From a bacterium (GTDB taxonomy: Bacteria; Blakebacterota; Blakebacteria; Blakebacterales; Blakebacteraceae), in assembly GCA_025774615.1 (NCBI GenBank), contig JALGVQ010000055.1:1-30621 (forward strand): a stretch of 30,621 nucleotides of DNA, read 5' to 3'. The notes below the pieces were generated by a model, which worked only from the letters and a program-made list of their open reading frames with translations, was not told the origin of the DNA and made no database searches. A program made the position numbers and the translations under genes. Positions 3 through 19,800 of the stretch are shown here, one piece after another; position 1 is the stretch's first letter; every line of letters starts with the position of its first letter.

Positions 3-815
3 GGAGGCATGGTGTTCCACAACATCCTCATACTCAATCACTACCTCTTCGAACGCCGGAAAAAGCTGAAGGATTCTTCCTGGATTCGCAGACTTGATAC
101 CACCGAAGTGATCCAGCATCTGCTCCTGGCCCTCTCCTTCATCCTCCTGGTGATCACCGGATTCGCACTGAGGTTCCCTGAGACCGGGTGGGCGCGATTC
201 GTCACATGGCTGGGCATGAATGAGCCGGTGAGAGGAACCATCCACCGGATCTCGGCGGTGTTGATGATCGGTGTCTCGTTCAGCCACCTCTACTCGATCT
301 TCTTCACGAAGCGGGGCAGGATGCAGATCAGAGCGATGTTGCCCGGATTCAGGGACGCCACCGACGCGATCGGCGCAGTGAAGTACTACACGTGGATGAG
401 CAGGACCCAACCAGGCGCGGATCGATACGACTACACGCAAAAGGCTGAGTACTGGGCGCTCATCTGGGGAACTGCCGTCATGGTACTCACCGGTTTCGTT
501 CTCTGGTTCCCTGTACAGGCCGCAAAGATATTCCCCTCATGGATCGTGATGGTCTCCCAGACGATTCATTATTACGAAGCATGGCTCGCGACCCTTGCGA
601 TCATCGTGTGGCATGGTTTCTTCACAATACTGCACCCGCGTGAATTCCCGATGAGCTGGACATGGATTACCGGACGGATGCCGCTGGAGGATGCCAGGCA
701 TCACCACCCGCGCTGGTATAAGGACGTGGCAACGGGCCGGGAGAAGGAAGAGATGCTCGACATGGAAGACTCTTCCACGGACGATGATGTACCAACGGCG
801 GATAATCAGGAGTAG
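3..815 (+). CDS. Membrane cytochrome b (HydC/FdnI/b561-like), 5'-truncated by window edge
   Basis: This is a multi-pass membrane protein that probably carries b-type hemes and exchanges electrons between quinol and periplasmic cytochromes. Four or so hydrophobic segments are visible (about residues 36-54, 78-97, 147-167 and 185-207, counted from the ATG at position 9). Histidines suited to heme ligation sit at residues 37, 79, 93, about 187 and about 201, which is the layout of the HydC/FdnI and cytochrome b561 families. The tail is acidic. The frame is open to the left edge. The only candidate start, ATG at 9, has a GGAGG just one base upstream, too close for a ribosome site, and is followed by a non-membrane stretch containing HN-rich residues. 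I infer that the gene begins outside the window, perhaps as a c-type/b-type fusion like Geobacter CbcL. It converges with ccmE, 20 bases away. Confidence 0.8.
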   Translation, partial: GGMVFHNILILNHYLFERRKKLKDSSWIRRLDTTEVIQHLLLALSFILLVITGFALRFPETGWARFVTWLGMNEPVRGTIHRISAVLMIGVSFSHLYSIFFTKRGRMQIRAMLPGFRDATDAIGAVKYYTWMSRTQPGADRYDYTQKAEYWALIWGTAVMVLTGFVLWFPVQAAKIFPSWIVMVSQTIHYYEAWLATLAIIVWHGFFTILHPREFPMSWTWITGRMPLEDARHHHPRWYKDVATGREKEEMLDMEDSSTDDDVPTADNQE

Positions 816-835: not shown

Positions 836-1261
836 TCAGGGAGTGATGGGCTCATCTCCCTCATTCCCGACATGCTCAGTGGGGTCCTTCCCTTCATACT
901 TGCTCGGACACTTCGTCAGTATCTGCCGGGCCTGAAAACGGACACCATCCCAGGTGCCGATGGCGACAATCCCGGTTGCATCATCAAAGGCCGAAGGCTT
1001 TACGCCTGCGAACACCACTTCAAGAGAATCACTGCTTTCAGGTGAGACCATGTAGAAGTGGAATTTCCGGGCTTCATCATCGCTGTACCAGGAAAGGCGG
1101 TTCTCAGGAAGATCACCTGAGACCTGGACGGTCTTTTCAGTCGCTTCCCTGGCTTCGGCGAAGGTCACATAAGGATTGAGTGAATCCTTGAACGCGCCAA
1201 GGCCGAGCCAGGTGAACCCGACCAGTGCCACGATACCCACTATGATGCGTGTTCTGTTCAT
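836..1261 (-). CDS. ccmE: Cytochrome c maturation heme chaperone CcmE, cysteine (CxxxY) type
   Basis: CcmE carries heme in the periplasm from the CcmABCD complex to the CcmFH ligase. This 141-residue protein has one N-terminal membrane anchor (about residues 5-23) and a beta-rich OB-fold-like domain with the usual LPENRLSWY-type region. Near the C-terminus is KCPSKYEG, with Cys118 and Tyr122. In E. coli the heme-binding residue is a histidine in an HDENY context; a Cys in a CxxxY motif is the variant described for Desulfovibrio and archaeal CcmE. I chose the ATG at 1261, 19 bases after the ccmD stop, because GGGAGGGG lies upstream of it. An in-frame ATG at 1321 would overlap ccmD and add a charged leader. 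It is the last gene of a leftward ccmC-ccmD-ccmE set. Confidence 0.92.
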   Translation of the reverse strand: MNRTRIIVGIVALVGFTWLGLGAFKDSLNPYVTFAEAREATEKTVQVSGDLPENRLSWYSDDEARKFHFYMVSPESSDSLEVVFAGVKPSAFDDATGIVAIGTWDGVRFQARQILTKCPSKYEGKDPTEHVGNEGDEPITP

Positions 1262-1280
1262 CCTCCCTGCCCCTCCCTCA

Positions 1281-1439
1281 TCATCCTTCTGAAGTCTCTG
1301 TCGGATTGTCCTCAACCTCACCTCTTGCGAGCAGTGCGGTCTCCAGGCGCTTCAACCGCCGGTCCTGCCCGGCCAGATAGAAGAATATCCCGGCCCAGAT
1401 GATGATGATGACCAGGGCAGCGTATACCAGGTCACCCAT
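1281..1439 (-). CDS. ccmD: Small CcmD-like heme exporter subunit
   Basis: This is a 52-residue single-pass membrane protein beginning MGDLVYAALVIIIIWAG, with a hydrophobic segment at about residues 5-23 followed by a basic stretch (QDRRLKRLE) and an acidic tail. Length, topology and position between ccmC and ccmE match CcmD, which stabilises the CcmABC complex and helps release holo-CcmE. The ATG overlaps the end of ccmC by eight bases, so translation is probably coupled. CcmD proteins are poorly conserved, so the call rests on topology and synteny rather than on sequence motifs. It is short enough to be missed by routine gene calling. Confidence 0.8.
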   Translation of the reverse strand: MGDLVYAALVIIIIWAGIFFYLAGQDRRLKRLETALLARGEVEDNPTETSEG

Positions 1440-2082
1440 GGAGCACCTCCCGTTTCAAAGTTCGTATTCTGCTGGCCATTCCGAATATCCAGGAAAAGAG
1501 CAGTGTCTGACCGATCAAAGCTGCATTGAGAACCAGTATCATCCCCGTTGCCATCCCCCCTTCCCCCGCTGAATTCACCACCGGGTCGGGATGGAGTGAC
1601 TCCATGATCCGGGGTACCACGAAGATCAGGTAAGGAACAGTGATGAAGGCGATGATGTTGTAGGCTCCCGCCAGAACACCGCGGCGATCCGGATCATCCA
1701 CCGCTGAGCGTAGCGCGAAGTATGCGCCGTAGATGAGCAGGAGGATGACGATGCTTGATTCCCGGGGATCCCAGTTCCAGTAGACCCCCCATGCTTTCTT
1801 TGCCCACATCGAACCGCTCACGGTCGCCAGTATCGCGAAGAGGAGGCCGATCTCGGCCGCTGTCGTCGCCCGATCGTCCCAGAGGAGGTCCCTGCTCCTG
1901 AGATACCTGATGGAGCAGATGAGCGCGGTCCCGAAGGCCAGCACACAGATCCATGCCACAGGGATATGGAACCAGGCGATACGGCTCAATTCACCCAGCC
2001 CCATCGCGGGCGGAATGGCGTTGAATGCCGCCCAGATCACTACCGTGATCCAGATCCCGGTCAGATACTTCCACCACTTCAT
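1432..2082 (-). CDS. ccmC: Heme exporter protein CcmC
   Basis: This 216-residue, six-segment membrane protein of the heme handling protein family presents heme to CcmE at the periplasmic face. The tryptophan-rich WWD signature is visible at about residues 98-108 (WGVYWNWDPRE). The two expected external heme-ligand histidines are His39 (in AWFHIPVAW) and His164 (in ESLHPDP). Length is normal for the family (about 200-250). The ATG at 2082 is preceded by GAGAGG six bases upstream. It opens the ccmC-ccmD-ccmE set; ccmF is about 3.5 kb upstream on the same strand and ccmA, ccmB and ccmH are not in the window. About 210 bases separate it from the preceding cytochrome gene, including a terminator-like hairpin, so it probably has its own promoter. 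Confidence 0.95.
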   Translation of the reverse strand: MKWWKYLTGIWITVVIWAAFNAIPPAMGLGELSRIAWFHIPVAWICVLAFGTALICSIRYLRSRDLLWDDRATTAAEIGLLFAILATVSGSMWAKKAWGVYWNWDPRESSIVILLLIYGAYFALRSAVDDPDRRGVLAGAYNIIAFITVPYLIFVVPRIMESLHPDPVVNSAGEGGMATGMILVLNAALIGQTLLFSWIFGMASRIRTLKREVLHG

Positions 2083-2205
2083 GCCGTACCTCTCACTGTT
2101 CCGATCGATCGCGCTCGATCCGGAGGGATATCAAGGATGATAAAGTACGTCCTCCGGTGACATTTTCAGAGAGAAAAGGTAGGTACCCTCCCACTCCATA
2201 TACAG

Positions 2206-2237
2206 GGGGGTCTCCAGCCATCAGGCCGGAGACCCCC
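2206..2237 (-). terminator. Strong hairpin after the Ig-nonaheme cytochrome gene
   Basis: A near-perfect inverted repeat (arms GGGGGTCTCC and GGAGACCCCC, with an inner GCC/GGC pair around an ATCA loop) lies about 55 bases past the stop of the gene ending at 2294. No clean T-tract follows on the minus strand, so it may be a Rho-assisted terminator or an mRNA 3'-end stabiliser. It separates the cytochrome genes from ccmC. Confidence 0.6.
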
Positions 2238-2293
2238 GAGTTACTCGCGCCGGAATAGGTGACGCGTTCTTTTACCCTGTTACAGCCGGTTCT

Positions 2294-3991
2294 TTACTTG
2301 TCGCCCGACGACAGTACGTGCCCGTTGGGTACATCAATACCGGCAACATGCCTGTACGACTGCTGCAGCAACTGGATGGTGAAGGCTGCATTGTGAACCC
2401 CATGACTGTGGTCGTAGAGGACCGTAGCCAGGTTGAATCCAGACTCACGCACTGTGCGCGTCGCCAATCCACCCGACAGGACAGCTGACCAGACAGACGT
2501 GCTGTCGTCAGGGAATCCGACCGCAGTGAGGACGACATCGAAAGCATCGTCACCCGAGACGCCGACCGTGTCCAGACCCGTCGCCACCAGGGCACCCAGC
2601 AGCGAGTCCATGAGTCCGTTCACCTCACTCTGGACCCCTTCGACCGCACCGTCACCGTCGAAGTCGTTCTTCGCCATGATATCATCGAAATCGGTCAGAA
2701 CACCGTGGCATGACTCACACGCTTCCACACTGGGCTCAAACGCGTGCTCGGATGTATTCGGACTTCCGTACTGGTTCACCCCGTCATGACCTTCCATGTG
2801 GCATGTCACACAGGAGTCTTCCATCAACAGGTGCTGTGAGCTGGACCAGACGAAACCGCTTCCCACGACATCTACGAAGAAGACATCCGGATAGAGGAAC
2901 GCCCCCTGGTTCCCGTGGTGCGGCCCGAAGTGTGACGATCCGTTGGCAACCTGGTCCTCGATGTCAGCTGCATCGCGGCGACCGGTGTGGCAACCGAGAC
3001 ACAGGTTCCCGAGCCCACCCTTGGTGACGGTGTCACCGTTGGGGGCCGTAACCCCTGAGGGGTACAACCTGATCTGGTGTTCGTTGGTCGCGTCGTGCGG
3101 GTTGTGGCAGGTGATACAGTTGATCGAGATGAAGGTGGTGTCGGAAACCGCTGCTCCCGAAACCTCTTCGATGTATCCGCTGCCCGTGTGACACCGGGCG
3201 CCACAACCTGAATAGTATGATCCTTCGTAGATCGTGTGACCGACGTTATGGTTGTGCGCTTCCCAGTCCGACCAGTTGTTGTTCCTGGTGCTTACGTGGC
3301 AATCGGCACAGACATCCTCGCTCACCGAGAGTGTGATTTCAGTTACGTCACCATTGCCGGCTACGTGCGCGCTTGCAGGACCGTGACAGTTCTCACACTG
3401 AACATTGTGAAGATCACTCACGGGATTGTCATCAAATCCACCGTTCGCCAGATCAGCGTCGTATCCGGTCGTGTGGCACTCAAAGCAGTATTCAGCGCCG
3501 TGGTCCGATTCCAGGATCGCGCTTGCTGCGTCGGCGTGATTCGTTTCCTGCCAGGCAGCATAGGTGGTCGAATGACAGCCCGAGCATGCCTCAGCACCAA
3601 GGTAGTAAGGCTGGACTGCCGGTACGTAGACATCGACTCCGATGTCGATCGTGCTCTTCGTGAGATTGATGCCATCGTTCACTTCGAGTTCGATGGTAAC
3701 GATCTCTTCGACTTCGGGTGACGTCCACGTCACTGTATCGTTACTGGTGCTCGAGAACGTCCCCTTCGGAGCACTCCAGCGGTATTCAATCGCGTCGCCG
3801 TCGGCATCGGTAACCACCGCTATAAGGATGGTTTCGGCGCCCTGACTGATCGAAGTCGAGGAGGCAGTGATGGATACGATTTCTGGAGCTTTATTCTCTG
3901 AGCCGGTGCTCTCCTCGCAGCCCATGAGGGCAAACGAGGATACCGCGAGAGCGACCATCCCCACTCGTAACCAGTGCTTGCTATGATTCAT
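2294..3991 (-). CDS. Nonaheme c-type cytochrome lipoprotein with N-terminal Ig/PKD-like domain
   Basis: The 565-residue product is an exported multiheme electron carrier. It starts with a lipoprotein signal ending LMGC (Cys25). Residues about 32-122 form a beta-rich Ig/PKD-like domain (AVVTDADGDAIEYRWSAP is typical of that fold). The heme domain follows, with eight CXXCH motifs (CSGCH, CFECH, CENCH, CADCH, CITCH, CLGCH, CVTCH, CESCH) and one CX3CH (CGARCH, fifth in order). The C-terminal part of about 130 residues is heme-free and helical, with a DFDGDG loop and a GVHNAAF segment. The heme and tail regions resemble the nonaheme lipoprotein at 10726-12003, so the two are probably paralogs. The start at 3991 has AGGGGAT upstream. 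A 78-bp repeat shared with the octaheme gene lies upstream. A role at the outer membrane in metal or electrode reduction is inferred. Confidence 0.9.
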   Translation of the reverse strand: MNHSKHWLRVGMVALAVSSFALMGCEESTGSENKAPEIVSITASSTSISQGAETILIAVVTDADGDAIEYRWSAPKGTFSSTSNDTVTWTSPEVEEIVTIELEVNDGINLTKSTIDIGVDVYVPAVQPYYLGAEACSGCHSTTYAAWQETNHADAASAILESDHGAEYCFECHTTGYDADLANGGFDDNPVSDLHNVQCENCHGPASAHVAGNGDVTEITLSVSEDVCADCHVSTRNNNWSDWEAHNHNVGHTIYEGSYYSGCGARCHTGSGYIEEVSGAAVSDTTFISINCITCHNPHDATNEHQIRLYPSGVTAPNGDTVTKGGLGNLCLGCHTGRRDAADIEDQVANGSSHFGPHHGNQGAFLYPDVFFVDVVGSGFVWSSSQHLLMEDSCVTCHMEGHDGVNQYGSPNTSEHAFEPSVEACESCHGVLTDFDDIMAKNDFDGDGAVEGVQSEVNGLMDSLLGALVATGLDTVGVSGDDAFDVVLTAVGFPDDSTSVWSAVLSGGLATRTVRESGFNLATVLYDHSHGVHNAAFTIQLLQQSYRHVAGIDVPNGHVLSSGDK

Positions 3992-4107
3992 GTAATGGAT
4001 CCCCTATTCCGGGTTTTCTTTGATTCTCATTTATTATGAGGAGTGCTGACAGTGACTCGTGAGCACTGCTTACCAATTAATAAGTACTACGAATATTCTA
4101 TTTCAAT

Positions 4108-4185
4108 ACTAAATCAGTAGTAATTGGTCCGAATATCGACTTTTTCCAGGAAATCCAGGCCTGATGTATAGGTTTGTATATATTT
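4108..4185 (-). promoter_or_regulatory. Direct repeat copy A, upstream of the Ig-nonaheme gene
   Basis: This 78-bp segment is nearly identical to 5507-5584: the first 38 bases (plus-strand order) match exactly and about 69 of 78 match overall by eye. It ends 117 bases upstream of the ATG at 3991. On the coding (minus) strand it runs from an AT-rich TATATA stretch to a GGACCAATTACTACTGA block. The same position relative to two cytochrome genes suggests a shared promoter or regulator-binding element. Confidence 0.65.
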
Positions 4186-4211
4186 CACGTAATCGATGCA
4201 GATACAGGCCA

Positions 4212-4240
4212 CCCATCGCACCGTCAACCGGTACGATGGG
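4212..4240 (-). terminator. Hairpin between the octaheme and Ig-nonaheme genes
   Basis: A seven-base perfect inverted repeat (CCCATCG / CGATGGG) with an inner ACCG/CGGT pairing lies about 33 bases past the octaheme stop codon. There is no T-tract. Its placement just before the 78-bp repeat mirrors the hairpin at 5585-5614, so it probably marks the end of one transcript before the next promoter. Confidence 0.45.
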
Positions 4241-4272
4241 CAGTCTGCAGGAAAGGCTATCCGATCAAAGGG

Positions 4273-5403
4273 TTACCTGGGGGCGGTGTGAATCCCCATC
4301 GCTCTGGTCGACAGTTCGCTCAGGGTTTTCGCGCTCCCGGAGCCGCCGATACCATTGGGATCCTTATGGCATCCGTAACAGGCGAAATCGAGAGTGACGA
4401 ATCCGTACGCCTTTGCCCCACCATCATACCACATGGCGTCTTTGCCCACGGCAGCGGTGTTGATTTTGAATATGTGCGTTTCAATGTCTCCATTGTACAT
4501 ATTCTCGGCAACCGCTGACTTGGAGGCCTCAGGCATATGGCAGTATTCGCAATCAATTGTCATATGATTGAGTGTTGTCGACTGGTCGGCATGGCAGCTT
4601 GCACAGGTCACCCTGATACCGCCCATGCTGGCGCCATCGACGGAACTCGCGTGGGGATCGTGGCACGTGACACAATCGAGACCACGATGACCGCCAGACA
4701 GCATTTCGTCGTACTGCTCGTGATGCTTGATGAATCCACCGGATGCGGCGATCAGGTGGTTGGCATCACGCGTGTGACACTCACCACACAAGCTCGAATG
4801 GGTGTCGACCCTGATGTCATCGGCTGACTGGGTCTTCACGTGCCTGGATCCGCGACCATGGCACTGTTCACAGCGAACACCAGGTTCGGAAAAGGCGCCC
4901 GCCATGCCTGGCAGGTCATCCTGTCGTTTTCCACCGACAGCGTAATCGACCCATCCGGTCGTGTGACACGTTCCACAGTCGTACTGTTTGGTTCCCGGTG
5001 CTTCAGTGTCGTGGTAGCCGACCCAGCCATCTGTCTCGATGTTGTACTGAACCGCGCTACCGGTGATGATATACCCGTTCGAGTCGACGAAACGCGCTTT
5101 CCAGTTGTATCCGCCAATGACATAGGATATGTCACTCCACGTGTACCCCGAAGGTGGCACCGGGGTGTCCCATCCGTTCAGGTCGGGTGCCGTACCATCT
5201 TCGACCTTGACCAGTTTATAGGGATGTCCGGTTGCTTCTACCTGTGAGACGACAGTGGCGTGGCATTCCTCGCAGGCACTCATCCCGGCGAAGGTCAATC
5301 CCGGGATGACCTCTGTCGGATTATCGTCACACCCTGCGATGGCAAGAGAAGCGACAGCGAGAACGGCTGCTCCAAGTCGCAGCCAGTGTCTGGTTGGATT
5401 CAT
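4273..5403 (-). CDS. Octaheme c-type cytochrome lipoprotein
   Basis: The 376-residue product has a lipoprotein signal ending AIAGC (Cys25) and eight CXXCH motifs in order: CEECH, CGTCH, CEQCH, CGECH, CVTCH, CASCH, CEYCH, CYGCH. Between hemes 1 and 2 is an insert of over 100 residues (ISYVIGGYNWKARF and similar) that I recognise from cytochrome c554-like multiheme proteins of metal-reducing bacteria. Cys25 is followed by Asp-Asp; in E. coli Asp at +2 favours inner-membrane retention, but that rule may not apply here. The start at 5403 has AGGGGA eight bases upstream and gives a proper signal peptide; the open frame extends further but without one. Its signal peptide resembles that of the gene starting at 3991 (MNxxxHWLRxG). 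A periplasmic or surface electron-carrier role is inferred. Confidence 0.9.
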   Translation of the reverse strand: MNPTRHWLRLGAAVLAVASLAIAGCDDNPTEVIPGLTFAGMSACEECHATVVSQVEATGHPYKLVKVEDGTAPDLNGWDTPVPPSGYTWSDISYVIGGYNWKARFVDSNGYIITGSAVQYNIETDGWVGYHDTEAPGTKQYDCGTCHTTGWVDYAVGGKRQDDLPGMAGAFSEPGVRCEQCHGRGSRHVKTQSADDIRVDTHSSLCGECHTRDANHLIAASGGFIKHHEQYDEMLSGGHRGLDCVTCHDPHASSVDGASMGGIRVTCASCHADQSTTLNHMTIDCEYCHMPEASKSAVAENMYNGDIETHIFKINTAAVGKDAMWYDGGAKAYGFVTLDFACYGCHKDPNGIGGSGSAKTLSELSTRAMGIHTAPR

Positions 5404-5506
5404 GTGTGGGTCCCCTGTCCCGAAATGATGTTGATGAGCAGAACCTGTGAAATTGTTGTTAGTGCTTCTTAATACTTTATAAGTGGTGCTAATAATGATC
5501 TGCAAG

Positions 5507-5584
5507 ACTAAATCAGTAGTAATTGGTCCGAATATCGACTTTTTTCAGGATTTAGCGACCTGCTGTATAGGTTTATATATATTT
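5507..5584 (-). promoter_or_regulatory. Direct repeat copy B, upstream of the octaheme gene
   Basis: Second copy of the 78-bp element at 4108-4185, ending 103 bases upstream of the ATG at 5403. Differences cluster in the middle (a nine-base block), leaving conserved outer blocks: the 38-base block nearest the gene and a CTATACA plus TATATA block farther away. This looks like two conserved half-sites with a variable spacer, as expected of a promoter or activator region. No experimental promoter is implied. Confidence 0.65.
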
Positions 5585-5614
5585 GACCGGACCGGCTCTG
5601 CAGCCGATCCGGTC
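5585..5614 (-). terminator. Hairpin just after ccmF
   Basis: An inverted repeat (GACCGG / CCGGTC with an inner GGCT/AGCC pairing) lies within 10 bases of the ccmF stop codon and directly abuts repeat copy B. There is no T-tract on either strand, so intrinsic termination is uncertain. Confidence 0.4.
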
Positions 5615-5621
5615 AAACGGG

Positions 5622-6512
5622 TCATGATCCCTTCGGCTTCATACTGACAGCTCTCCTGATTATTGCGATCGTTCCTCCCGCCAGAACCAGCAGGACACCC
5701 AGCCAGAGAACGCTCATCAGCGGTTTCTCGCTCAACTCCACGGTGAGGAGACCTCCGACCGCCCTGCCGTCTACTGGTGTGTCCTCACCCATGTAGACGA
5801 GCGTTACCCGGCCCCTGTCGGCATCGATTCCCTGAAGCCTCAACAATCCGTCCACGCCTCCAGGTAAAGCGACTGCTGGAGGCTGCTCCCCACCGACCGA
5901 CCAGCGGGGGATGATGTGTTCACTCCCTCCATCCCACTCCACCAGGACACGGGCTCCGATCGTGCCGGCCACCATGTCGGAGGTTTCGTGTCCGCCCATG
6001 TCGTAGTCTTCGAACGTGAGCGTGATCCCACCGATCTCCTGCGATTCCCCCTTCCCCAGATCGAGGATGTTGCCCGATCCGGCAACTGCCTCAGAGGGCG
6101 GCAGATACTGAGCCGGTGCGAGATAGAGATCACCAAGGAGCCCCCGGGCGATATGGGGTTCTGCGCGTACCATCATCTGTCCAGATCCATACTGCTGATA
6201 CAGTTTCGGCTTCAGAACTCTCGAGGCGGCAGATCCCGGCCGGGTGAGGGTCACGGAAGTCGACTGCTTGCCACCAGGCTCCTCGTTCCAGCCGGTGAAG
6301 GTCAGTTCGTACCCGAGCACCTCGGTCGGAGTCTGATAGATCAGGTCGGCTGTCTGCTTCTGCCCCGTTGTGGCAGCCACGACGGCAATCAGCATTATGG
6401 CGGCACCGATATGAGCCAGAGGGCCCCCGGTCATTTTCCAACCATCGCTTGAGAGTGTATGCTGGAAGATGAAGAGGTTCGCGGCCAGCGCCAGCACACA
6501 TCGATGCGGCAA
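5622..6512 (-). CDS. ccmF: CcmF C-terminal part, in a different frame from the N-terminal part
   Basis: This frame continues the CcmF protein after the frame change near 6495-6501. The first meaningful residues read VLALAANLFIFQH and then GGPLAHIGAAIML, a typical late CcmF membrane segment with a histidine. A periplasmic domain of roughly 190 residues follows, then a last membrane span near the end (SVLWLGVLLVLAGG). No convincing start codon exists at the head of this frame, so it is not an independent gene. Joined to the upstream part by skipping one base, the protein would be about 730 residues, somewhat longer than usual because of the periplasmic domain. A hairpin and the 78-bp repeat follow. 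Confidence 0.85.
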   Translation of the reverse strand: MPHRCVLALAANLFIFQHTLSSDGWKMTGGPLAHIGAAIMLIAVVAATTGQKQTADLIYQTPTEVLGYELTFTGWNEEPGGKQSTSVTLTRPGSAASRVLKPKLYQQYGSGQMMVRAEPHIARGLLGDLYLAPAQYLPPSEAVAGSGNILDLGKGESQEIGGITLTFEDYDMGGHETSDMVAGTIGARVLVEWDGGSEHIIPRWSVGGEQPPAVALPGGVDGLLRLQGIDADRGRVTLVYMGEDTPVDGRAVGGLLTVELSEKPLMSVLWLGVLLVLAGGTIAIIRRAVSMKPKGS

Positions 6513-7815
6513 CTGCCCCGATCAGACCGGCGGACACCGAGACGATCAGTGCCTGTCGTCCCACCATACCCCCGCCACGCCAGCGGATAAGGACCGAGAG
6601 ACCGATCCCGAGAGCCATGAGGATCGCAAGCGGCAGCGTTGTTCGGCCATAGTACGAGATATCTATCGCCGCGCCCTCACCTCCGGAGATCTTGCTGATG
6701 ATCGGAGCCGAGGTGCCGAGCCCGATCAATACCGTTATCCCGATGATGACGAGAGTCCCGATCGTGAGCTGCATCTCCCGGCTGAAGAACTGCTCATCGA
6801 GTTTCTCACCCTTGAGTGCCTCTCCAGCTCCCGTGATCCGGTAGAACCCGTAACCGATAACCGCGACCATCCACACAAAGAGCCAGGTACCCACCTTGCT
6901 GGCTCCAAACGTGTGCACGCTGGCGCCTTCGAGGACCCCGCTGCGAGTAAGGAAGGTGGAGTATATGACGAGCGCGAATGTCAGTATCGCGAGGACGACA
7001 TTGGTCCTGGCGAGTTTCTTCCGTGAGCGCTGAAGGAGCATACCATGGAAGAGTGCCATCCCGAGCAGCCACGGGAGGAGACTGGCGTTCTCGACAGGGT
7101 CCCAGCCCCACCAGCCACCCCAGCCAAGCACTTTATATGCCCAGAATCCGCCCATGATGACGCCGGTACCCAGGGTTACCCACCCGAGTAGTGACCAGGG
7201 AAGAGCGCTGTCGATCCATTCTTCATTCCGCTTGCGACCGAGTCCGGCCATGGCAAAAGCAAAGGGGATCGAAAGTGCAGCGTAGCCGAGGAAGGTGACC
7301 GGTGGATGAATAGCCATCCACGGGTCGCGCAGCAGAGGATTCAACCCGGCGCCTTCAGCTGGAATCTGCGGGAGGAGGGAAAAAAGACCACTGATAAGGG
7401 TCATGACCACGAGGGCCGCTGCCGAAGGCAGGTAGACCTTCATCACCGGCACTTCCCACTCACCTGAGTATCTGGCGAGCGCCCACGCGAGCAGAGCCGC
7501 CAGGATCGCCCAGATGAGGAAGCTCCCCTCCTGCCCCGCCCAGAACGCGGACAGGACATACAGCGCCGGCAGATCATTGCTCACATGAGCGTAGACATAT
7601 TCAACCTGATAGGCATGGGCGAACAGCAGCCACAGGAGAGAAAATCCCGCGACCGAGAGTGAGATCACCGCGTAGAACAAATATTTTCTGGCCTTCGGGA
7701 GGCCTGGATCGGAATCCTTCAGATCGATCCCGCGGTAGGCGATCCACGACATGATGTACGTTATCAATGCGGCGATGAGCGCCGCCGAACCAAGGGTGGG
7801 CAGTACGGCAGTCAT
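6130..7815 (-). CDS. ccmF: Cytochrome c heme lyase subunit CcmF, N-terminal part (frame broken near 6498)
   Basis: CcmF is the membrane core of the heme ligase that attaches heme to CXXCH motifs. The multi-pass protein shows the WWD domain at residues 231-243 (WGGWWGWDPVENA), plus His170 (MAIHPPV), His257 and His301 (GASVHTFG). The start at 7815 has AGGAG seven bases upstream. Homology is continuous to about residue 439; after the sequence SVSAGLIGAVAASM the frame reads a non-CcmF tail ending at 6130, while the true continuation is in the next frame. The switch lies in a CACACA stretch at 6495-6500, where one extra base (or two missing ones) explains it. The gene lies 73 bases after the outer-membrane barrel gene, consistent with co-transcription with the cytochromes it matures. 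Confidence 0.9.
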   Translation of the reverse strand: MTAVLPTLGSAALIAALITYIMSWIAYRGIDLKDSDPGLPKARKYLFYAVISLSVAGFSLLWLLFAHAYQVEYVYAHVSNDLPALYVLSAFWAGQEGSFLIWAILAALLAWALARYSGEWEVPVMKVYLPSAAALVVMTLISGLFSLLPQIPAEGAGLNPLLRDPWMAIHPPVTFLGYAALSIPFAFAMAGLGRKRNEEWIDSALPWSLLGWVTLGTGVIMGGFWAYKVLGWGGWWGWDPVENASLLPWLLGMALFHGMLLQRSRKKLARTNVVLAILTFALVIYSTFLTRSGVLEGASVHTFGASKVGTWLFVWMVAVIGYGFYRITGAGEALKGEKLDEQFFSREMQLTIGTLVIIGITVLIGLGTSAPIISKISGGEGAAIDISYYGRTTLPLAILMALGIGLSVLIRWRGGGMVGRQALIVSVSAGLIGAVAASMCAGAGREPLHLPAYTLKRWLENDRGPSGSYRCRHNADCRRGCHNGAEADSRPDLSDSDRGARVRTDLHRLERGAWWQAVDFRDPHPAGICRLESSEAETVSAVWIWTDDGTRRTPYRPGAPW

Positions 7816-7888
7816 TCAGACAACTCCTGCTGTTTCTGGTAACGGGTGATGCTACCGGATGTGAGTATTGCGCTCTGTCTCTACGTTG

Positions 7889-9757
7889 TTAAAAACCTCT
7901 GCTGAATCCAAAGGTGATCAGCGAAGCGTCGAAATCATCGAGATCATCGACTACCTGGTCGAGTGAGAACGACCGGTAATCCACGTGCAGGGTAAGCACG
8001 TTCAGGTCAATGGCGACACCCAGACGCATCATCGAACGCGTGAGCGGCCACTGGCCATTGGCCCTGAACCAGTATCCGTCAGCTACGACATCGATGCCGT
8101 CTTTCAGGTGCCAGGCCAGACCACCGGCCGTCGCGAAGGTGACGTCACGGTAGTTGAAGATGGTGGGTGAGGGTGGCGCGAACCGTGCGATCGGTACCGT
8201 CATCTCGAGTCGCCCGCGCGTCCAGGTCATATGACCGCTCAGGTTATCAAGGAGTGGGAACCGGGAGGCTCTGAGCCCGACTGAGAAGTTGCGGTAATCG
8301 CTCGTCCGCGTGTTGAAGTAGTAATCGGGATCGGTGCTGTCATGGCTGTAGTAGCGCATCGACGAGCCATATTTATAGGCGATCGTTGTGGTCAGCCATT
8401 TGTGCGGCATGAAGTTGAGAACCGCGGAAGTGCTGTTCCGGTCAGTGGGTGATATCCGGGAATAGGGATTCTCGATATCCGCGACACGGTGGCTGAAACG
8501 GAACCTGAACCGATCGTGACGAGCCCAGGTGAATCCACCGACCCAGTCGGCGGTCACCGTCTCAGAAGTCTCCGCCCCGCCCTCTTCGAGGGTCCGGGAT
8601 ATGTTCGCCCCGCCGATATCGATCGAGACACCCCTGAGCGGGGTCCAGATCATCCGCCCCATGAGACGGAGCGAGGTGACGGCTATTTCGACAGATGTTA
8701 CACCGGGAATCAGAATACCTTGAGGATCCCAGTAGCCTTCCACACCGTATGCCGTCCTGCGGATCGAGACGTCGGTCGAGAGACCCTTGAGAAGAGAAAG
8801 ACTGAATCCACCATCGAGAATGGAATAACTGCGATCAAGTGCCCCTCTCGCCGATGATTCGGAATCGAGCGGCGCTCCGCTGTAATCGATCCCCTCCGCA
8901 ACTTCCAGGAGTGACTTCTCGATCGTACCTGAAGAACTGCTGTACCCGAACCGGAGCATCGCCGGCCCCACGGGGGCGACGACGTTCACCTTCATCACCG
9001 GCAGATCCCCGACATCGTGCAGGATGTGGGAGTAGTCGTACAGTTCACTCGACCGCCCATCCAGTCCTTCACTGGTATCAGCGACGACTGCTCCATACCG
9101 GTTATCGAGATGGTAGAGAGAATAGGAGAGATCGACGGTGGCCATACTGAGCGGCAGGCTCGTAGATATCTGCAAGGAACTGGAAGTCTCATCCACCGGT
9201 GTCTGGGCCAGGTGCTTCTCACGTTCGATGTTCCAGACCAGGAGATTCGTTCCCTCCCTGCGGAGCCGGTCGTAACGGATATGGATATCAGGCAGCTTTC
9301 CGGTAGAGATGGTGAGGTCGGCAAACCTTCCTCTGCGGGTATAGGCATACGGCGAGCCGCCGATACCGAAATCATCCACATACGAGCCGGTGGTGTGGAA
9401 ATAGCGGGAGTTGTATCCCCCGTACCTCAGATGGTAGAGACCACTCTTCGAAAGCCAGCCATTCAGGGTCGATAAGGGAGACTCTCCCCATCCTGCTGCG
9501 TTCAGCCCGAACTGCTGTCCGGCGGCGTCACCGGAGAGCGAGAGGCCGGCCAGCTGGAGACCGCTCTGGTAATCATATTCCTCATCGTACTTCATCCCGG
9601 CGTTCGATCCGCCCGCTAGCGAGAGGGAACGCGCGCTCAGGTGAAGCCAGCCGGAAACCACTCCACTCTGCTGGGCGTGGACGGTCACGGCCGGGAGAGA
9701 AGAGAGCAGAGAGGTGAGTGTGAATGCTGTTACCGCGATCCGCGAAATGGTGCGCAT
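7889..9757 (-). CDS. MtrB/PioB-like outer-membrane beta-barrel of a porin-cytochrome conduit
   Basis: The 622-residue product has a signal peptide (MRTISRIAVTAF... ending VHAQQ) and alternating amphipathic strands throughout, rich in Tyr, Arg, Ser and Gly, ending in Phe (FGFSRGF), the usual signal for outer-membrane barrel insertion. Its N-terminal part (SLSLAGGSNAGMKYDEEYDYQSG region) and its place directly after a decaheme cytochrome gene match the MtrB/PioB/DmsF family, which sheathes an MtrA-type cytochrome to carry electrons across the outer membrane. MtrB is about 700 residues. I prefer the ATG at 9757, with GGTGAG seven bases upstream, over an in-frame GTG at 9769. I do not see the CXXC pair found near the Shewanella MtrB N-terminus. 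It starts 18 bases after the cytochrome stop. Confidence 0.85.
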   Translation of the reverse strand: MRTISRIAVTAFTLTSLLSSLPAVTVHAQQSGVVSGWLHLSARSLSLAGGSNAGMKYDEEYDYQSGLQLAGLSLSGDAAGQQFGLNAAGWGESPLSTLNGWLSKSGLYHLRYGGYNSRYFHTTGSYVDDFGIGGSPYAYTRRGRFADLTISTGKLPDIHIRYDRLRREGTNLLVWNIEREKHLAQTPVDETSSSLQISTSLPLSMATVDLSYSLYHLDNRYGAVVADTSEGLDGRSSELYDYSHILHDVGDLPVMKVNVVAPVGPAMLRFGYSSSSGTIEKSLLEVAEGIDYSGAPLDSESSARGALDRSYSILDGGFSLSLLKGLSTDVSIRRTAYGVEGYWDPQGILIPGVTSVEIAVTSLRLMGRMIWTPLRGVSIDIGGANISRTLEEGGAETSETVTADWVGGFTWARHDRFRFRFSHRVADIENPYSRISPTDRNSTSAVLNFMPHKWLTTTIAYKYGSSMRYYSHDSTDPDYYFNTRTSDYRNFSVGLRASRFPLLDNLSGHMTWTRGRLEMTVPIARFAPPSPTIFNYRDVTFATAGGLAWHLKDGIDVVADGYWFRANGQWPLTRSMMRLGVAIDLNVLTLHVDYRSFSLDQVVDDLDDFDASLITFGFSRGF

Positions 9758-9775
9758 GACTTTTCTCACCCCCCT

Positions 9776-10729
9776 CTATCGCCTGAAGAACAGTCGATGA
9801 CTGTCGCTGCCGTGAATCGCGGTATGACAGGTCGTACAGTCCTGGTACCGCACATCGGCAAAGTTGTGGGTCGTGGGCGCCTCGATATGACAGGTGATGC
9901 ACAGCTCACTCGTCCGGTTCGTCTTCAACATGAAACGGTTAGCCGATCCATGCGGAGTGTGGCAGGTGACACAACCCTCCACCGTGCTCGCCTGATGCTC
10001 ATATACGAACGGTCCCCTCTTGTCGATGTGGCAGGAGGCGCACAGTTCACCATTGATCATCGGCCTGTTGAGCATGCCCCGTTCGGGAGATCCATGAGGA
10101 TTGTGGCAGTCTTCGCAGCGGATGATCCCGTTCTCCAGCCTGTGTCCATCAGCGGCCGCGAAATCGGCCATACTGCCCGGGTGACACGAGTAGCAGAGAG
10201 CGGGCGTCGGTGAGGTCTTGAGATATTCGTCGACTTTCGGCGAGTGCATGGAATGGCAATCGGTGCACGAGATTCCACCCGCCATATGGGTCGATGTCCC
10301 ATAGCCGGCATGGCGCATCGAACCTGCATGACAGGTCAGGCAGGTCGATGACACATCAACCGGTTCTTTCTCGGTGAAGTTCACCATCATCTCTGGATCA
10401 CCACTGGCGTTGACATGTTCAGCGCCGGGACCATGACATGCCTCACAGGTCAGATCCCCACTCGGATGTTCCGTACCGGCGCCTGCACCAGCGTGCGGAT
10501 TATCCGGCAGTGCAGCGATGTGGTCGACGTGACACATGCCGCACATCTCAGCGCCCATGTACTGATCCTCTGATCCCGGAGCCGGCTTCCAGGCAAGCAC
10601 TCCCTGCTGGGTGGCGCCGAGCAGCTCGGGTACGCCGGTCAGGGCGACACCGGTCAGGACCATCAAACCGAGGATGGCAGGGAAGACCGGCAAGCCTGTT
10701 CGTCCATTTCGACGGAACAGCATGCTCAT
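9776..10729 (-). CDS. Decaheme c-type cytochrome, MtrA/DmsE-like
   Basis: The 317-residue exported protein has an N-terminal hydrophobic signal segment (about residues 13-39) and ten CXXCH motifs: CGMCH, CEACH, CLTCH, CTDCH, CYSCH, CEDCH, CASCH, CVTCH, CITCH, CTTCH. Length and heme number match MtrA, PioA and DmsE, which pass electrons through an MtrB-type barrel. Repeated CXXCH-xPHG units (DCHNPHGS, TCHTPHGS) are typical of that family. Its ATG overlaps the stop of the upstream nonaheme gene (ATGA); a second ATG at 10723 has better spacing from GGAGG and could be the true start. The barrel gene follows immediately, so the two very probably form the conduit. Confidence 0.92.
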   Translation of the reverse strand: MSMLFRRNGRTGLPVFPAILGLMVLTGVALTGVPELLGATQQGVLAWKPAPGSEDQYMGAEMCGMCHVDHIAALPDNPHAGAGAGTEHPSGDLTCEACHGPGAEHVNASGDPEMMVNFTEKEPVDVSSTCLTCHAGSMRHAGYGTSTHMAGGISCTDCHSMHSPKVDEYLKTSPTPALCYSCHPGSMADFAAADGHRLENGIIRCEDCHNPHGSPERGMLNRPMINGELCASCHIDKRGPFVYEHQASTVEGCVTCHTPHGSANRFMLKTNRTSELCITCHIEAPTTHNFADVRYQDCTTCHTAIHGSDSHRLFFRR

Positions 10730-12003
10730 CTACCTCCCCCTGAACCGGAAGGCACCGGGGTGAAATCCGCAAGCGCATCCTCAAGAAGCTTTCGGCTGTA
10801 ATCGGTGTTATGGACTCCCAGGCTGCCCTCGGAGATCATCGCTTCGAGCACGAACTTCGCGTTCAGATAACTTGTTGTTGTCTCCTGTGCGGTGCCCGCC
10901 GCGTCTATCTCGGCCTGCAGTTGTGTGATCAGACCCTGGATTTCGGTCTGCACCCCATTGATATCAAAATCAGTTGCGCCCTCATGGCACTGCTGACATG
11001 CCTCGATCCGGGGTTCAAAGGTATGACCTGTTTTCGCCGGTACCGCTTCGCTGACGTATGGACTGCTGAAAACGTGGCATGCGACACATGCTTCTGTAGC
11101 AAGGGCTGTCGTGTGGGTGGAGTTCTCATACTCCTCACCAGAGTAGCCGAACCCCAGTGTACCGTTGAACACCTCCCAGGTGGCGTGATGGACCGTCTCA
11201 CCGGGCAGAGCGCCCTCGGCATTGTGACACTTCGCGCAGATCACGTTCTGCCCGAGGGGTAACCGCAACTGTCCCGGATTATCATTGCTGTGTGCCGTAT
11301 GACAGGCCTGACAGGTGATCGGCTGCGGATCGCTCGCGATGTAGCCGCTCTCTCCCGTAGTGACCCAGCGCTCGAATGACTGGGCAATATGGCACTCGGC
11401 ACAGCTGGGATTGGTGGCGACTAATCCCCCGGCGCTCGCGTCGGCTCCCGCGTGAGCCGATAATTCCCATTCCTCCATATAGGGATGGTGGGTCCCCTCA
11501 TGGCACTTGCCGCACAGCTCGGCGTCCCACAATTCCGAATCGACCGGCTGGAGAACATCGGTCGGCGAATCGACATATGCGTTGTTGTGCTGGCTGCCCG
11601 GACCATGACATACCTCACACTGCACATCCCGGTACATCAGAGTATCACTGGAAGCAGCCGCCCAGGCGTCATCGGCCCCAAGAAGGGAGTCACTGGTATC
11701 CCACCCGGTCGTATGACACGGATAGCAGTAAGAGGCAGCGTGTTCGCTCTCCTGGATGGTGGTGAGCGCGTCGGCGTGAGCCGTGAGACGCCAGCCGAAA
11801 GTGGTTTCCTGATGACACTGCACGCAGGAAGGATTCCGATTCACCGCATCGGAATAACCGATGTACTGCAGAGGAACGGCAGCGCCCTCTACGACGGGTC
11901 CCGTCGGCCCCTCATCCTGTTCGCACCCCGCCGCCAGCATCATGGCCGGTATCAACATGAGCAACGCCAGCACCTGCAGTCTGCGCGTCCAGTATCCGTT
12001 CAT
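10726..12003 (-). CDS. Nonaheme c-type cytochrome lipoprotein, candidate surface partner of the conduit
   Basis: The 425-residue product has a lipoprotein signal ending LAAGC (Cys27) and nine CXXCH motifs: CVQCH, CYPCH, CEVCH, CGKCH, CAECH, CQACH, CAKCH, CVACH, CQQCH. A heme-free helical tail of about 85 residues contains a DFDINGVQTEI segment and GVHNTDYSRKLLEDAL, closely resembling the tail of the Ig-domain cytochrome at 2294-3991. The GVHN-type helix recalls the C-terminal helices of the NrfA/octaheme reductase group, which is a weak resemblance. It lies directly upstream of, and overlaps, the MtrA-like gene, the place where outer-surface or terminal cytochromes are often encoded. The start at 12003 has AAGGAAC about seven bases upstream. 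Surface exposure is inferred. Confidence 0.9.
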   Translation of the reverse strand: MNGYWTRRLQVLALLMLIPAMMLAAGCEQDEGPTGPVVEGAAVPLQYIGYSDAVNRNPSCVQCHQETTFGWRLTAHADALTTIQESEHAASYCYPCHTTGWDTSDSLLGADDAWAAASSDTLMYRDVQCEVCHGPGSQHNNAYVDSPTDVLQPVDSELWDAELCGKCHEGTHHPYMEEWELSAHAGADASAGGLVATNPSCAECHIAQSFERWVTTGESGYIASDPQPITCQACHTAHSNDNPGQLRLPLGQNVICAKCHNAEGALPGETVHHATWEVFNGTLGFGYSGEEYENSTHTTALATEACVACHVFSSPYVSEAVPAKTGHTFEPRIEACQQCHEGATDFDINGVQTEIQGLITQLQAEIDAAGTAQETTTSYLNAKFVLEAMISEGSLGVHNTDYSRKLLEDALADFTPVPSGSGGGR

Positions 12004-12143
12004 CGTTGTTCCTTTCGGGCTCGTCCGGCCCCGAAGTTGTTCAATGTCAGGTTTACCAAAACCAAGGGGCCTCCACCGGAATTGTCGTTCCGTCAGTGAC
12101 CCCGGTTACACACTTGATCCTGAATGGCTCTCCTGGCTGATCG

Positions 12144-12716
12144 CTACCCTTTTGTCGGATCGGGGTGAGCGATCTTCGGGGCCATCTCTTCGAAGTCGAA
12201 TCCCGAGAATGTCGGACTCGTGTCGTTATGGCACTTCAGACAGGTCTCTTCATCTGGAGTCAACATCCCGTTGGCGACCGACTGGTCATGGTCTCTCATG
12301 ATGGGGAACTTGTTATAGTCGGCACCACCTCCGTGGCACGATTCGCAACCGACTCCATCTTCAGCCTTCCAGGTAGCGGCATGCTCACTACCCTGCCCTG
12401 ACGTGTGACAGGTCAGGCATTCTGCCGCTTCCTGCGGGTTCCCGAGTCCCTTGTCAGTGGCGATCTGCTTTGCCTGATCACTGCCCAGGGTCTCAAAGGC
12501 CTTGGCGTGCAGGCTGCCTTCCCACTTGCCGAACTGGTTACCCTTGGCTTCACTCCGGTGGCACATCTTGCAGCCGTCCACACCGACGTAGGCATGGTCC
12601 GCGGAGGCGGTCTCCGGGAATCCGGCACCTGTCAGAACCACGAGCGGAAAGATGAGCAGGGGCAGAATGAGCAGGCTCCAGCGCGGGATACGTTGGTTTC
12701 TGGTGTACTCGGTCAT
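12144..12716 (-). CDS. Tetraheme cytochrome c554-like periplasmic electron carrier
   Basis: The 190-residue product has an N-terminal hydrophobic segment (about residues 13-38, either a cleaved signal or a membrane anchor) and four CXXCH motifs: CKMCH, CLTCH, CESCH, CLKCH. The opening YVGVDGCKMCH, the SLHAKAF helix and the ECLTCHTSG block match the cytochrome c554 family, first known from Nitrosomonas as an electron acceptor and also common as a periplasmic shuttle in metal reducers. It is the first gene of the leftward cytochrome block, 140 bases before the nonaheme lipoprotein gene. The ribosome site is weak (GGAG about 11 bases upstream). A role between an inner-membrane quinol oxidase and the outer-membrane conduit is inferred. 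Confidence 0.9.
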   Translation of the reverse strand: MTEYTRNQRIPRWSLLILPLLIFPLVVLTGAGFPETASADHAYVGVDGCKMCHRSEAKGNQFGKWEGSLHAKAFETLGSDQAKQIATDKGLGNPQEAAECLTCHTSGQGSEHAATWKAEDGVGCESCHGGGADYNKFPIMRDHDQSVANGMLTPDEETCLKCHNDTSPTFSGFDFEEMAPKIAHPDPTKG

Positions 12717-13217
12717 ATCTGTTGATGCTCCAGGTTTTCTGCATCACCGGGAAGGTGTACCGTATTCCCGAAGAAGCTCGGTTCACATATGTATAATTTC
12801 AGGCTCAATCGCCTTAAATAATAATCACTCCGAACAACTTGTCACACTCCTTTTCTTTCGAAATCGTAGAAATCCGCACATACGTTTCATCCCGGTCTTT
12901 CCGGTCTCCTGTCAGCTCGGATATTCAATCGACAGTTATCTCAGCAGTTCATCAGCAATCCGTCAGCAGTCCGTTCCCGGGGCAGATGGTGCCGGAATCC
13001 GGTCCGGATCCGATATCTGAATGAGGGTACATGAATACTGGGGATAGAGGAGTTGGAGTGGGCAGATACAGGCAAATAGGTGTATATCAAACATTAATCG
13101 TGTTATATGCAACACTTCTCAATTGACCTGCCACCCCTCTCTTCAGCTAACTGCTGGTAGTGCACATAGTTACAAACAGCCCGGAAATTGGCACGGAGTT
13201 TGTTACGGATAGTGGCC
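12717..13217. other. Divergent gene-free region between cytochrome and copper-efflux operons
   Basis: No protein-coding sequence is convincing in this half-kilobase, which is more AT-rich than its flanks. It must hold the promoters of both the leftward cytochrome block and the rightward cus-like operon. Visible elements are three 11-bp-spaced direct repeats (12941-12973), a GGAATCCGGTCCGGATCC near-palindrome just after them, AT-rich stretches on both sides, and a TTGGCACG-N4-TTG sequence at 13188-13202 that resembles a sigma-54 promoter but lies almost on the start codon. Confidence 0.5.
12941..12973. promoter_or_regulatory. Three 11-bp-period direct repeats, possible response-regulator site
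   Basis: Three consecutive 11-base units start TCAGCA(G/A)T at 12941, 12952 and 12963. Spacing of one helical turn between direct repeats is the arrangement bound by OmpR/PhoB-type response regulators. The site is in a divergent region; which operon it serves cannot be told, and no regulator gene is in the window. Confidence 0.35.
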
Positions 13218-14522
13218 ATGAACTCATTCTTACGTGCAACAGCTGTAATCGTGGTAATCGGAGTGACCGGTGGGAATATCCATGCCCAGGGCAACCCATC
13301 ATCCCCTCCACTCACGATCACTGAATTCGTTTCGGAAGTGCTTGCCACCCACCCTGGAGTGTCCACCCGGGAGTCAGGCAGGGATGCCGGCCTGCATCGT
13401 GTTCCGCAAGCCGGTGCCCTGCCTGATCCTGTCATCGGACTCGGAGTGATGAACCTTCCCTGGGGAAGTTTCAGCTTCGATCAGATGGACATGACGATGA
13501 AGACCCTTTCGGTCACCCAGATGTTCCCGGCGCCGGGAGTGCGGGAGGCACGCACGACCCTGTCGGAACGAGCCGTGGATGTCGCGGAGCAGGAGATCGC
13601 TGTGACCCGGGAGACGCTCAGCCGCCGGGCCCGTCTGCTCTACCTCGACCTGTATGACATCGAACAGGCCCTGGAGATCGTATCGGAGAACCAGACCCTT
13701 CTGGAGACATTCATCCGCATCTCGGAGGCGCGCTACCGCACAGGAGGCGGGATCCAGCAGGACATACTCAAAGCGCGTCTCGAGCATTCGCGCCTCACGG
13801 AAAAAACGATCCACCTCGAGGCCGGATACGCAGGTGCCAGGAGCGCGATGAATATCCTCCGGGGCCGCCCAGCCGGGGAGGAGTTCGATCTGGTCGAGCT
13901 TTCAGGACCAGGGGCCCCGCTTCCAGGGGCCGAAGAGCTGCTCTTGACAGCACGAGCCAACAATCCCGTCCTGCTGAAGGCTTCAGCCATGGTCGAACAG
14001 AGTGAAGCGGCACGGGCTCTCGCCGAACGTGCCACCCGACCGGCCTTGAGCGCCGCGACATCGTATGCCCAGCGGGATGGAGGGCGCAGGAACCTGATAA
14101 GCGCCTCCGTGATGGTACAGGTTCCTCTCTGGATGGGACGGAAACAGGCGCGCGCTGTGGATGAGCGGGAAGCGCTGACCAGGGAGACCCGCTACCGGCA
14201 GCTGGAGATGGAACTCGGCATCCGCGACTCGATCCATCGGCTCCAGAGCCGATTCGAGGAATCGCGCCGTCTGATCAGACTGTATGCCGCCGAGATCATC
14301 CCGGAGTCTGAAGGAGTTCTGAGCAGTACCCTGGCAGGCTACCAGGTCGGCCAGGTCGATTTCCTCACACTACTGAGTGCGCAGGCTACCCTCTTCAACT
14401 ACCAGCTCGAGTCGATCCGTGTGATGACCGACTACCACAGACATCTGATCGAGATGGAAGCGGTGCTGGGAACCGCGATTCCGGAATCCGGGATCGACGA
14501 ACTGTCAGGGAACGGATCATGA
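13218..14522 (+). CDS. TolC-family outer-membrane efflux channel, CusC/CzcC-like
   Basis: The 434-residue product forms the outer-membrane exit duct of a tripartite metal pump. It begins with a signal peptide (MNSFLRATAVIVVIG..., cleavage after HAQ) and has two repeated long-helix regions rich in Ala, Arg and Glu, such as EIAVTRETLSRRARLLYLDL and the later ATRPALSAATSYAQRDGG block, typical of outer-membrane efflux proteins. Length is normal. I chose the ATG at 13218; a TTG at 13188 extends the frame but adds residues before the signal peptide. The ribosome site is weak. The stop overlaps the start of the adaptor gene (ATGA), so translation is coupled. It leads the rightward operon with adaptor and pump. 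Confidence 0.9.
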   Translation: MNSFLRATAVIVVIGVTGGNIHAQGNPSSPPLTITEFVSEVLATHPGVSTRESGRDAGLHRVPQAGALPDPVIGLGVMNLPWGSFSFDQMDMTMKTLSVTQMFPAPGVREARTTLSERAVDVAEQEIAVTRETLSRRARLLYLDLYDIEQALEIVSENQTLLETFIRISEARYRTGGGIQQDILKARLEHSRLTEKTIHLEAGYAGARSAMNILRGRPAGEEFDLVELSGPGAPLPGAEELLLTARANNPVLLKASAMVEQSEAARALAERATRPALSAATSYAQRDGGRRNLISASVMVQVPLWMGRKQARAVDEREALTRETRYRQLEMELGIRDSIHRLQSRFEESRRLIRLYAAEIIPESEGVLSSTLAGYQVGQVDFLTLLSAQATLFNYQLESIRVMTDYHRHLIEMEAVLGTAIPESGIDELSGNGS

Positions 14523-19143: not shown

Positions 19144-19200
19144 TTCGGACCACGAATTAGATAGATGATGTTCTCAACGCAACAATAAATGGAGGCACAC

Positions 19201-19800
19201 ATGAAGAAGTTCGCGATTTCGACTCTCGTCATCCTGCTGATGGTGACGGTGGCCACAGCCGGCACGACCGAGGACAAACACTTCGGGCAACCGCTGACGA
19301 TCGAGAAGGTCACCCCCCTGAAAGACATCATCGCCTCACCGGCAGACTATGTCGGCAAGGAAGTCCGCACTGCCGGGTACATCTTTGAGATGTGTACCAG
19401 CAGCGGCTGCTGGATCGGCATCCTGCCCAGCATCGACAGCGAGGAGATCGTGAAGATCTCCTGGATGGAGACCGACGTCAGGTTCCCGATCGGAGAAGAG
19501 ACGACCGGGCACTACATCGAGATCCAGGGTGAGATCATCACCGCCGAGCAGGAAGAGGCGGACCATGAAGCTCACATGGAAGAAGAGGGGATGGATGCAG
19601 ACCACGAGCACGCCGAGGCGGCTCCCGAGGGAACTACCCGCACGGTCTACACCTGCCCGATGCATCCCGACGTGCAGAGTGAGACCCGTGACCGGTGCTC
19701 GATCTGCAACATGTACCTCACCCCGCACGAAATAGCTCTCCCCACCTACAGCGCGCTCGCCATCACGGGCATCGGCGCGATCGTGAAGGAGAAGAAGTAG
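19201..19800 (+). CDS. Secreted DUF4920-like protein fused to a heavy-metal-binding domain
   Basis: The 199-residue exported protein has a signal peptide (MKKFAISTLVILLMV...ATAG). A DUF4920-like domain (about residues 28-115) follows, containing GKEVRTAGYIFEMC and a CTSSGCW motif at residues 65-71. A Glu/His-rich linker (HEAHMEEEGMDADHEH) leads to a C-terminal heavy-metal-binding domain at residues 149-175 with CPMHP and CSICNM. I chose ATG 19201 because GGAGG sits five to six bases upstream; the ATG at 19189 overlaps that site. It closes the copper-efflux operon and is probably a periplasmic metal chaperone or sensor; its exact function is unknown. The last motif has Asn where the adaptor's domains have Gly. 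Confidence 0.85.
   Translation: MKKFAISTLVILLMVTVATAGTTEDKHFGQPLTIEKVTPLKDIIASPADYVGKEVRTAGYIFEMCTSSGCWIGILPSIDSEEIVKISWMETDVRFPIGEETTGHYIEIQGEIITAEQEEADHEAHMEEEGMDADHEHAEAAPEGTTRTVYTCPMHPDVQSETRDRCSICNMYLTPHEIALPTYSALAITGIGAIVKEKK

Follow-up and report, generated by a model that had tools for sequence, protein, structure and literature searches.

The stretch of DNA analyzed here (the window, 30.6 kb) contains a block of multiheme cytochrome genes that probably codes for an MtrAB-type conduit feeding electrons outward to OcwA-type surface reductases in a diderm bacterium, equipped with its own ccmF, ccmC, ccmD, and ccmE. The gene content, the protein families, the conserved gene order, and the active-site motifs of the nonaheme lip9 are direct observations. 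The source is a metagenome-assembled genome of an uncultured bacterium (3.30 Mb in 324 contigs, 82% complete), of which the window is contig C34, and we compared it with one further species of the genus (G001, the sister genome), two of the family (G002 and G003), and genomes that share only the domain with it. The block runs on the minus strand from 12716 to 2294, with gene families that match the original prediction of a single leftward cytochrome block with ccmF inside. As ccmC, a ccmD-like open reading frame (ORF), and ccmE continue it past the last cytochrome gene on the same strand, the unit is larger than first reported. Its genes, read along the minus strand, are the following:

12144..12716, minus strand: c554-like periplasmic tetraheme cytochrome, 4 CXXCH, signal peptide, PF13435 at 60 bits
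10726..12003, minus strand: lip9, nonaheme lipoprotein of the OcwA family, 9 CXXCH, lipobox LAAG/C
9776..10729, minus strand: mtrA, MtrA/DmsE-family periplasmic decaheme cytochrome, 10 CXXCH, TIGR03508
7889..9769, minus strand: putative divergent outer-membrane barrel of the MtrB/PioB superfamily, 626 aa, no hemes, C-terminal Phe
5622..7815, minus strand: ccmF (heme lyase), frameshifted, PF01578, PF16327, and NrfE/CcmF models
4273..5403, minus strand: lip8, accessory octaheme lipoprotein, 8 CXXCH, lipobox AIAG/C
2294..3991, minus strand: Ig9, PKD-domain nonaheme lipoprotein of the OcwA family, 8 CXXCH and 1 CX3CH, lipobox ALMG/C
1432..2082, minus strand: ccmC, TIGR01191 at 108.5 bits, below the cut-off of 186
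1281..1439, minus strand: ccmD-like 52-aa single-helix protein, named from its position between ccmC and ccmE and its shape only
836..1321, minus strand: ccmE, PF03100 at 50.6 bits

Spacing is close from lip9 to ccmF (lip9 and mtrA overlap by 4 bp, 6 bp separate mtrA from the barrel gene, and 73 bp separate the latter from ccmF), with wider gaps of 140 to 281 bp at the c554-like gene, lip8, Ig9, and ccmC. A motif count over the translated genes gives 39 CXXCH and one CX3CH, all on the minus strand, so the predicted total of 40 heme sites stands, although not as a count of CXXCH throughout. The exception is heme site 5 of Ig9 (CGARCH, residue 263); this protein is a PKD/Ig lipoprotein with nine sites, as had been proposed (PKD domain PF00801, 26.8 bits), but it has eight CXXCH plus CGARCH and not nine CXXCH. 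The six frames of the window contain a single CXXCH outside the genes of the block, at 26765, and the clustering of heme motifs is thus not due to chance.

The maturation genes of the block would supply heme attachment for these cytochromes. They correspond to system I, with CcmF, CcmC, and CcmE in the block and CcmB elsewhere in the genome (G000:C117). A frameshift near 6500 splits ccmF, the only such gene found in the genome; compared to its intact 734-aa counterpart in the sister genome (L012), a net 44 bp is missing, through either an assembly error or a real lesion. In five other genomes, too, ccmF lies close to OcwA-family genes, and ccmA-I operons have been reported next to mtrCAB (PMC8805035). 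At the contig edge, facing ccmE, there is a b561/FdhI-type membrane cytochrome b (9-815, plus strand), possibly part of an electron-entry complex lost at the contig end.

The decaheme had been described as MtrA-like, and this is borne out by a TIGR03508 match of 219.6 bits (cut-off, 192.2) and by its alignment over 253 residues with MtrA of the S. baltica MtrCAB complex (6r2q_A, E of 1.9e-40); by sequence, it is a DmsE/MtrA-family protein. The c554-like tetraheme matches cytochrome c554 (1bvb) with an E of 9e-8, and its gene adjoins lip9 in the sister genome as well (L014). The barrel is more difficult to place. It has a predicted signal peptide and no curated match (Pfam at E of ≤0.1, NCBIfam at E of ≤10), PF11854 and TIGR03509 included. 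However, when a four-row profile of the window barrel was compared by hhalign with a ten-row MtrB alignment, the result was 99.6% over 564 columns, against 0.4% for the reversed alignment and at most 0.7% for six column shuffles, so the profile search came out in favor of the relation to MtrB/PioB. Its BLAST neighbors are the barrels of L044, L046, and L047 (77 to 50 bits), each of which exceeds the PF11854 cut-off, and a barrel-sized ORF lies directly behind most MtrA matches in other genomes, as it does in the window. The profile-profile comparison, the intermediates, and the place behind mtrA support a predicted homology to MtrB/PioB. A profile search of the barrel alignment against the PDB gave nothing above chance (OmpA only, E of 0.5 to 0.9), and an AF2 model from five distant Verrucomicrobiota-type sequences had a pLDDT of 26.8.

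For the location of the system, the formation of a complex, the direction of electron flow, and the substrate, we infer the following scheme. The c554-like tetraheme would ferry electrons through the periplasm, and the decaheme, sitting inside the MtrB/PioB-type barrel, would conduct them across the outer membrane, as homology to the solved MtrAB suggests. Lipoboxes are present on all three extracellular candidates (lip9, lip8, and Ig9). The window contains no quinol-oxidizing entry protein; the only PF03264 match in the genome is a NapC/NirT-type tetraheme fused to an FGE-sulfatase domain (521 aa, L001 [G000:C240], 1483-3048, plus strand), and the genome codes for several NrfD-type proteins. 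The direction of flow is not readable from sequence, and the MtrAB homologs MtoAB and PioAB function in the oxidation of Fe(II) (PMC6344600), so the conduit could also work inward, with Fe(II) or a partner as the electron donor. We consider this unlikely, as MtoAB and PioAB work without an extracellular multiheme component (PMC6344600), whereas the block has two or three. In addition, the two genomes of the genus, which are 82% and 85% complete, showed no heme-copper oxidase (COX1), and POR genes are present in the window, which, in genomes that are both incomplete, fits an anaerobe using the conduit outward.

With outward flow, electrons would reach lip9 and Ig9. A six-row nonaheme profile has as its top match the structure of OcwA (6I5B; PMC6703420), with an E of 1.4e-42, followed by 6QVM and then by octaheme and pentaheme nitrite reductases. 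Searched alone, lip9 matches 6I5B with an E of 6.9e-26 and Ig9 with an E of 1.9e-8; Ig9 scores 327.5 bits against the nonaheme profile with 99% coverage, being itself one row of it, and shares 39% identity with lip9 over residues 59-249. The AF2 model of lip9, built with 52 relatives (pLDDT of 79.8, pTM of 0.78), aligns with OcwA at a Z score of 22.2 over 325 residues (3.3 Å), with the Carboxydothermus ferrireducens undecaheme at 21.0, and with NrfA and octaheme nitrite reductases at 14 to 15. The nearest solved relative of lip9 and Ig9, as judged from sequence comparison and, for lip9, from the predicted fold, is thereby the OcwA of the Gram-positive Thermincola.

The likeness extends to the active sites. 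The nine CXXCH of lip9 are invariant or nearly so in the 52 relatives, in an order matching that of OcwA. OcwA has six bis-His hemes, one with His-Met ligation (heme 9), and two open ones (hemes 2 and 5) with the pairs HH281/282 and HH380/381 (PMC6703420); these align with HH172/173 and HH272/273 of lip9 (the OcwA chain index differs from the published numbering by a constant offset of 29 at both pairs). Seven further nonproximal His residues of lip9 (76, 139, 184, 238, 297, 327, and 398) are conserved in 90 to 100% of the relatives, which provides enough distal ligand candidates for its seven six-coordinate hemes. In Ig9, NN replaces the first His-His pair and the second is kept. The nonahemes end, as OcwA does, in a C-terminal helical bundle with an invariant HN. 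Two five-coordinate hemes are probably at work in lip9, by analogy with OcwA, and would permit the reduction of small oxyanions as well.

From here it could be argued that the nonahemes act chiefly on soluble N or S oxyanions, as enzymes like NrfA or ONR, to which the barrel and the decaheme merely deliver electrons. The matches of the lip9 model to NrfA and octaheme nitrite reductases would agree with this, as would the reduction of nitrite and hydroxylamine by OcwA, but the nitrite turnover of the latter is very low (kcat of 1 per min; PMC6703420), no NrfA-type CXXCK occurs in the motif count of the block genes, and the closest structures, OcwA and OmhA, are surface cytochromes related to iron, so we regard such a main role as quite improbable. 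That the nonahemes are ordinary MtrC/OmcA-type cytochromes minus one heme is scarcely credible, as the PF22113 matches (MtrC/MtrF II-IV domain) at 54 and 40 bits stand against OcwA coming first by sequence and fold, no MtrC chain among the nonaheme-profile matches listed, no TIGR03507 match for any protein of the block, and the OcwA-like terminal bundle. PF22113 exceeds its cut-off on lip9, Ig9, and even the c554-like protein, so heme-domain profiles cross-react, and we took matches to UshA_like_PCGU, NrfH, and PF22113 to reflect cross-reaction between multiheme domains. The fold search with lip9 likewise had no MtrC or OmcA chain among the matches listed, which excludes nothing by itself. The earlier view that the lipoproteins do not resemble MtrC or OmcA is nevertheless upheld by the TIGR03507 result and by the match of the nonahemes to OcwA in sequence and of lip9 in fold.

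The third lipoprotein, lip8, appears to be an accessory. Its ORF opens at 5505, but the ATG at 5403 is the likelier start, since starting there yields the lipobox. The N-terminal half matches the front half of OcwA (6i5b, E of 5.8e-9). After the lipid Cys, lip8 has an Asp, a residue that in Escherichia coli is an inner-membrane retention signal, a rule that may not apply in the host phylum. In the sister genome, lip8 is absent from the place between ccmF and Ig9, so we rejected the octaheme as a universal part, and the particular set of three lipoproteins that had been proposed is not fixed. The lip8 leader and the DNA just upstream (window 4273-5505) resemble the region preceding Ig9 in the sister genome (L012, 4090-4227), as if lip8 had been inserted together with a copy of that leader.

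Apart from the missing lip8, gene order is kept in the sister species: one contig carries the RND efflux genes, the c554-like gene, and lip9, and another the barrel, ccmF, and Ig9, with the contig break falling over mtrA. The lip9-mtrA-barrel order recurs in an unrelated genome, a LacPavin sediment MAG (L056/L083), and L046 has two PKD-type nonahemes, mtrA, a barrel, and a c554 homolog. Five Verrucomicrobiota-type loci (L119, L136, L137, L139, and L151) code for a nonaheme, a heptaheme MtrA-like protein, and a barrel-sized ORF. The LacPavin and Verrucomicrobiota barrels match the window barrel by BLAST only at an E of ≥0.08 or not at all, so the case for a shared conduit type in these genomes is carried by MtrA and the nonaheme. 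In a set of 39 MtrA loci, which come from 33 genomes, full nonahemes are found at L046 and L056, five- or six-heme family members with the HN terminus at L073, L080, and L082, and remoter ones at L069 and L071. OcwA-family genes adjoin an mtrA-barrel pair in about a dozen genomes, Verrucomicrobiota included, while most of the at least 423 confirmed matches of the family have no mtrA near by; this linkage frequency is no census, as the linked set was partly picked through MtrA searches. Mapped on a tree of 60 rows, the link to MtrAB requires eight changes, at least six of them forced by starred branches, compared with 15 for shuffled labels; the pairing of nonahemes with MtrAB has therefore been gained or lost several times. 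lip9 and Ig9 lie in separate parts of the family tree, so the block gathers two separate lineages, and we rejected a recent tandem duplication.

Other arrangements appeared in the same comparison. Gemmatimonadota loci (L109, L112, L114, L121, L140, and similar ones) combine an octaheme OcwA-family lipoprotein, a 17- to 18-heme protein, a heme-free ORF of 500 to 650 aa, and a 16-heme protein; a porin is a possible identity for the heme-free ORF and would make this another conduit type. L081 codes for a 1,036-aa protein with 42 CXXCH (7481-10591, plus strand), two genes before a heptaheme lipoprotein that is followed by a 538-aa ORF.

Compared to known systems, the block shares with the MtrCAB/MtrAB of Shewanella (6R2Q; PMC7198977) an MtrA-family decaheme followed by an MtrB-superfamily barrel and separate extracellular multiheme lipoproteins. 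It differs in the very divergent barrel, in surface partners that are OcwA-family nonahemes and not MtrC or OmcA, in the order (surface gene, mtrA, mtrB), and in the inclusion of ccm genes. OcwA of Thermincola potens (6I5B; PMC6703420) has, like the nonahemes of the block, nine hemes, a c554-like front, and an NrfA-like back, with His-His pockets at hemes 2 and 5 (both in lip9) and the terminal helical bundle. In contrast, the nonahemes of the block are diderm lipoproteins whose genes accompany an outer-membrane conduit, lip9 has about 100 residues fewer, and one paralog (Ig9) has a PKD domain. OmhA, the S-layer undecaheme of C. ferrireducens (6QVM; PMC7829351), belongs to the same superfamily as lip9 but has eleven hemes, a monoderm host, and no porin-cytochrome complex. 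Porin-multiheme clusters, some with a separate extracellular multiheme, have already been described in Verrucomicrobia (PMC5615132); they resemble the block in pairing a non-Shewanella porin with a periplasmic multiheme, but the latter was reported with eight hemes and not ten, and no link to OcwA was drawn there. The Verrucomicrobiota loci of our analysis have OcwA-family nonahemes before the MtrA-like gene and the barrel-sized ORF.

The conduit is thus not a wholly new kind, as the combination recurs in other lineages and the Verrucomicrobia clusters were described before (PMC5615132). The suggestion of a distinct conduit type was based on heme number alone, and membership in the OcwA family is the better reason for it. 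OcwA was presented as the solution of a wall-bound Gram-positive, without relation to other surface metal reductases (PMC6703420), and later as the only protein from a monoderm among a subclade of nonahemes from Gram-negative bacteria, whose functions were not given (PMC7829351); the open-licence literature that we searched contained no OcwA relatives tied to an MtrAB pair. That a single operon combines this family with an MtrA-barrel pair points to a concrete role for these Gram-negative nonahemes, suggests that one transmembrane conduit can take different terminal reductases as exchangeable modules, and makes the family a marker for conduits missed by genome surveys seeking only MtrC or OmcA. 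It seems to us an evenly balanced question whether outer-membrane respiratory systems that combine an MtrAB-type conduit with catalytic surface cytochromes of the OcwA type are a separate class recurring across several uncultured phyla, with terminal enzymes that share ancestry with nitrite reductases and Gram-positive cell-wall reductases and could extracellularly reduce minerals as well as small oxyanions.

Last, the cytochrome block adjoins a divergent CusCBA-type heavy-metal efflux set with a further heavy-metal-binding protein (window 13188-19800), and the junction between these RND efflux genes and the c554-like gene is also kept in the sister genome.
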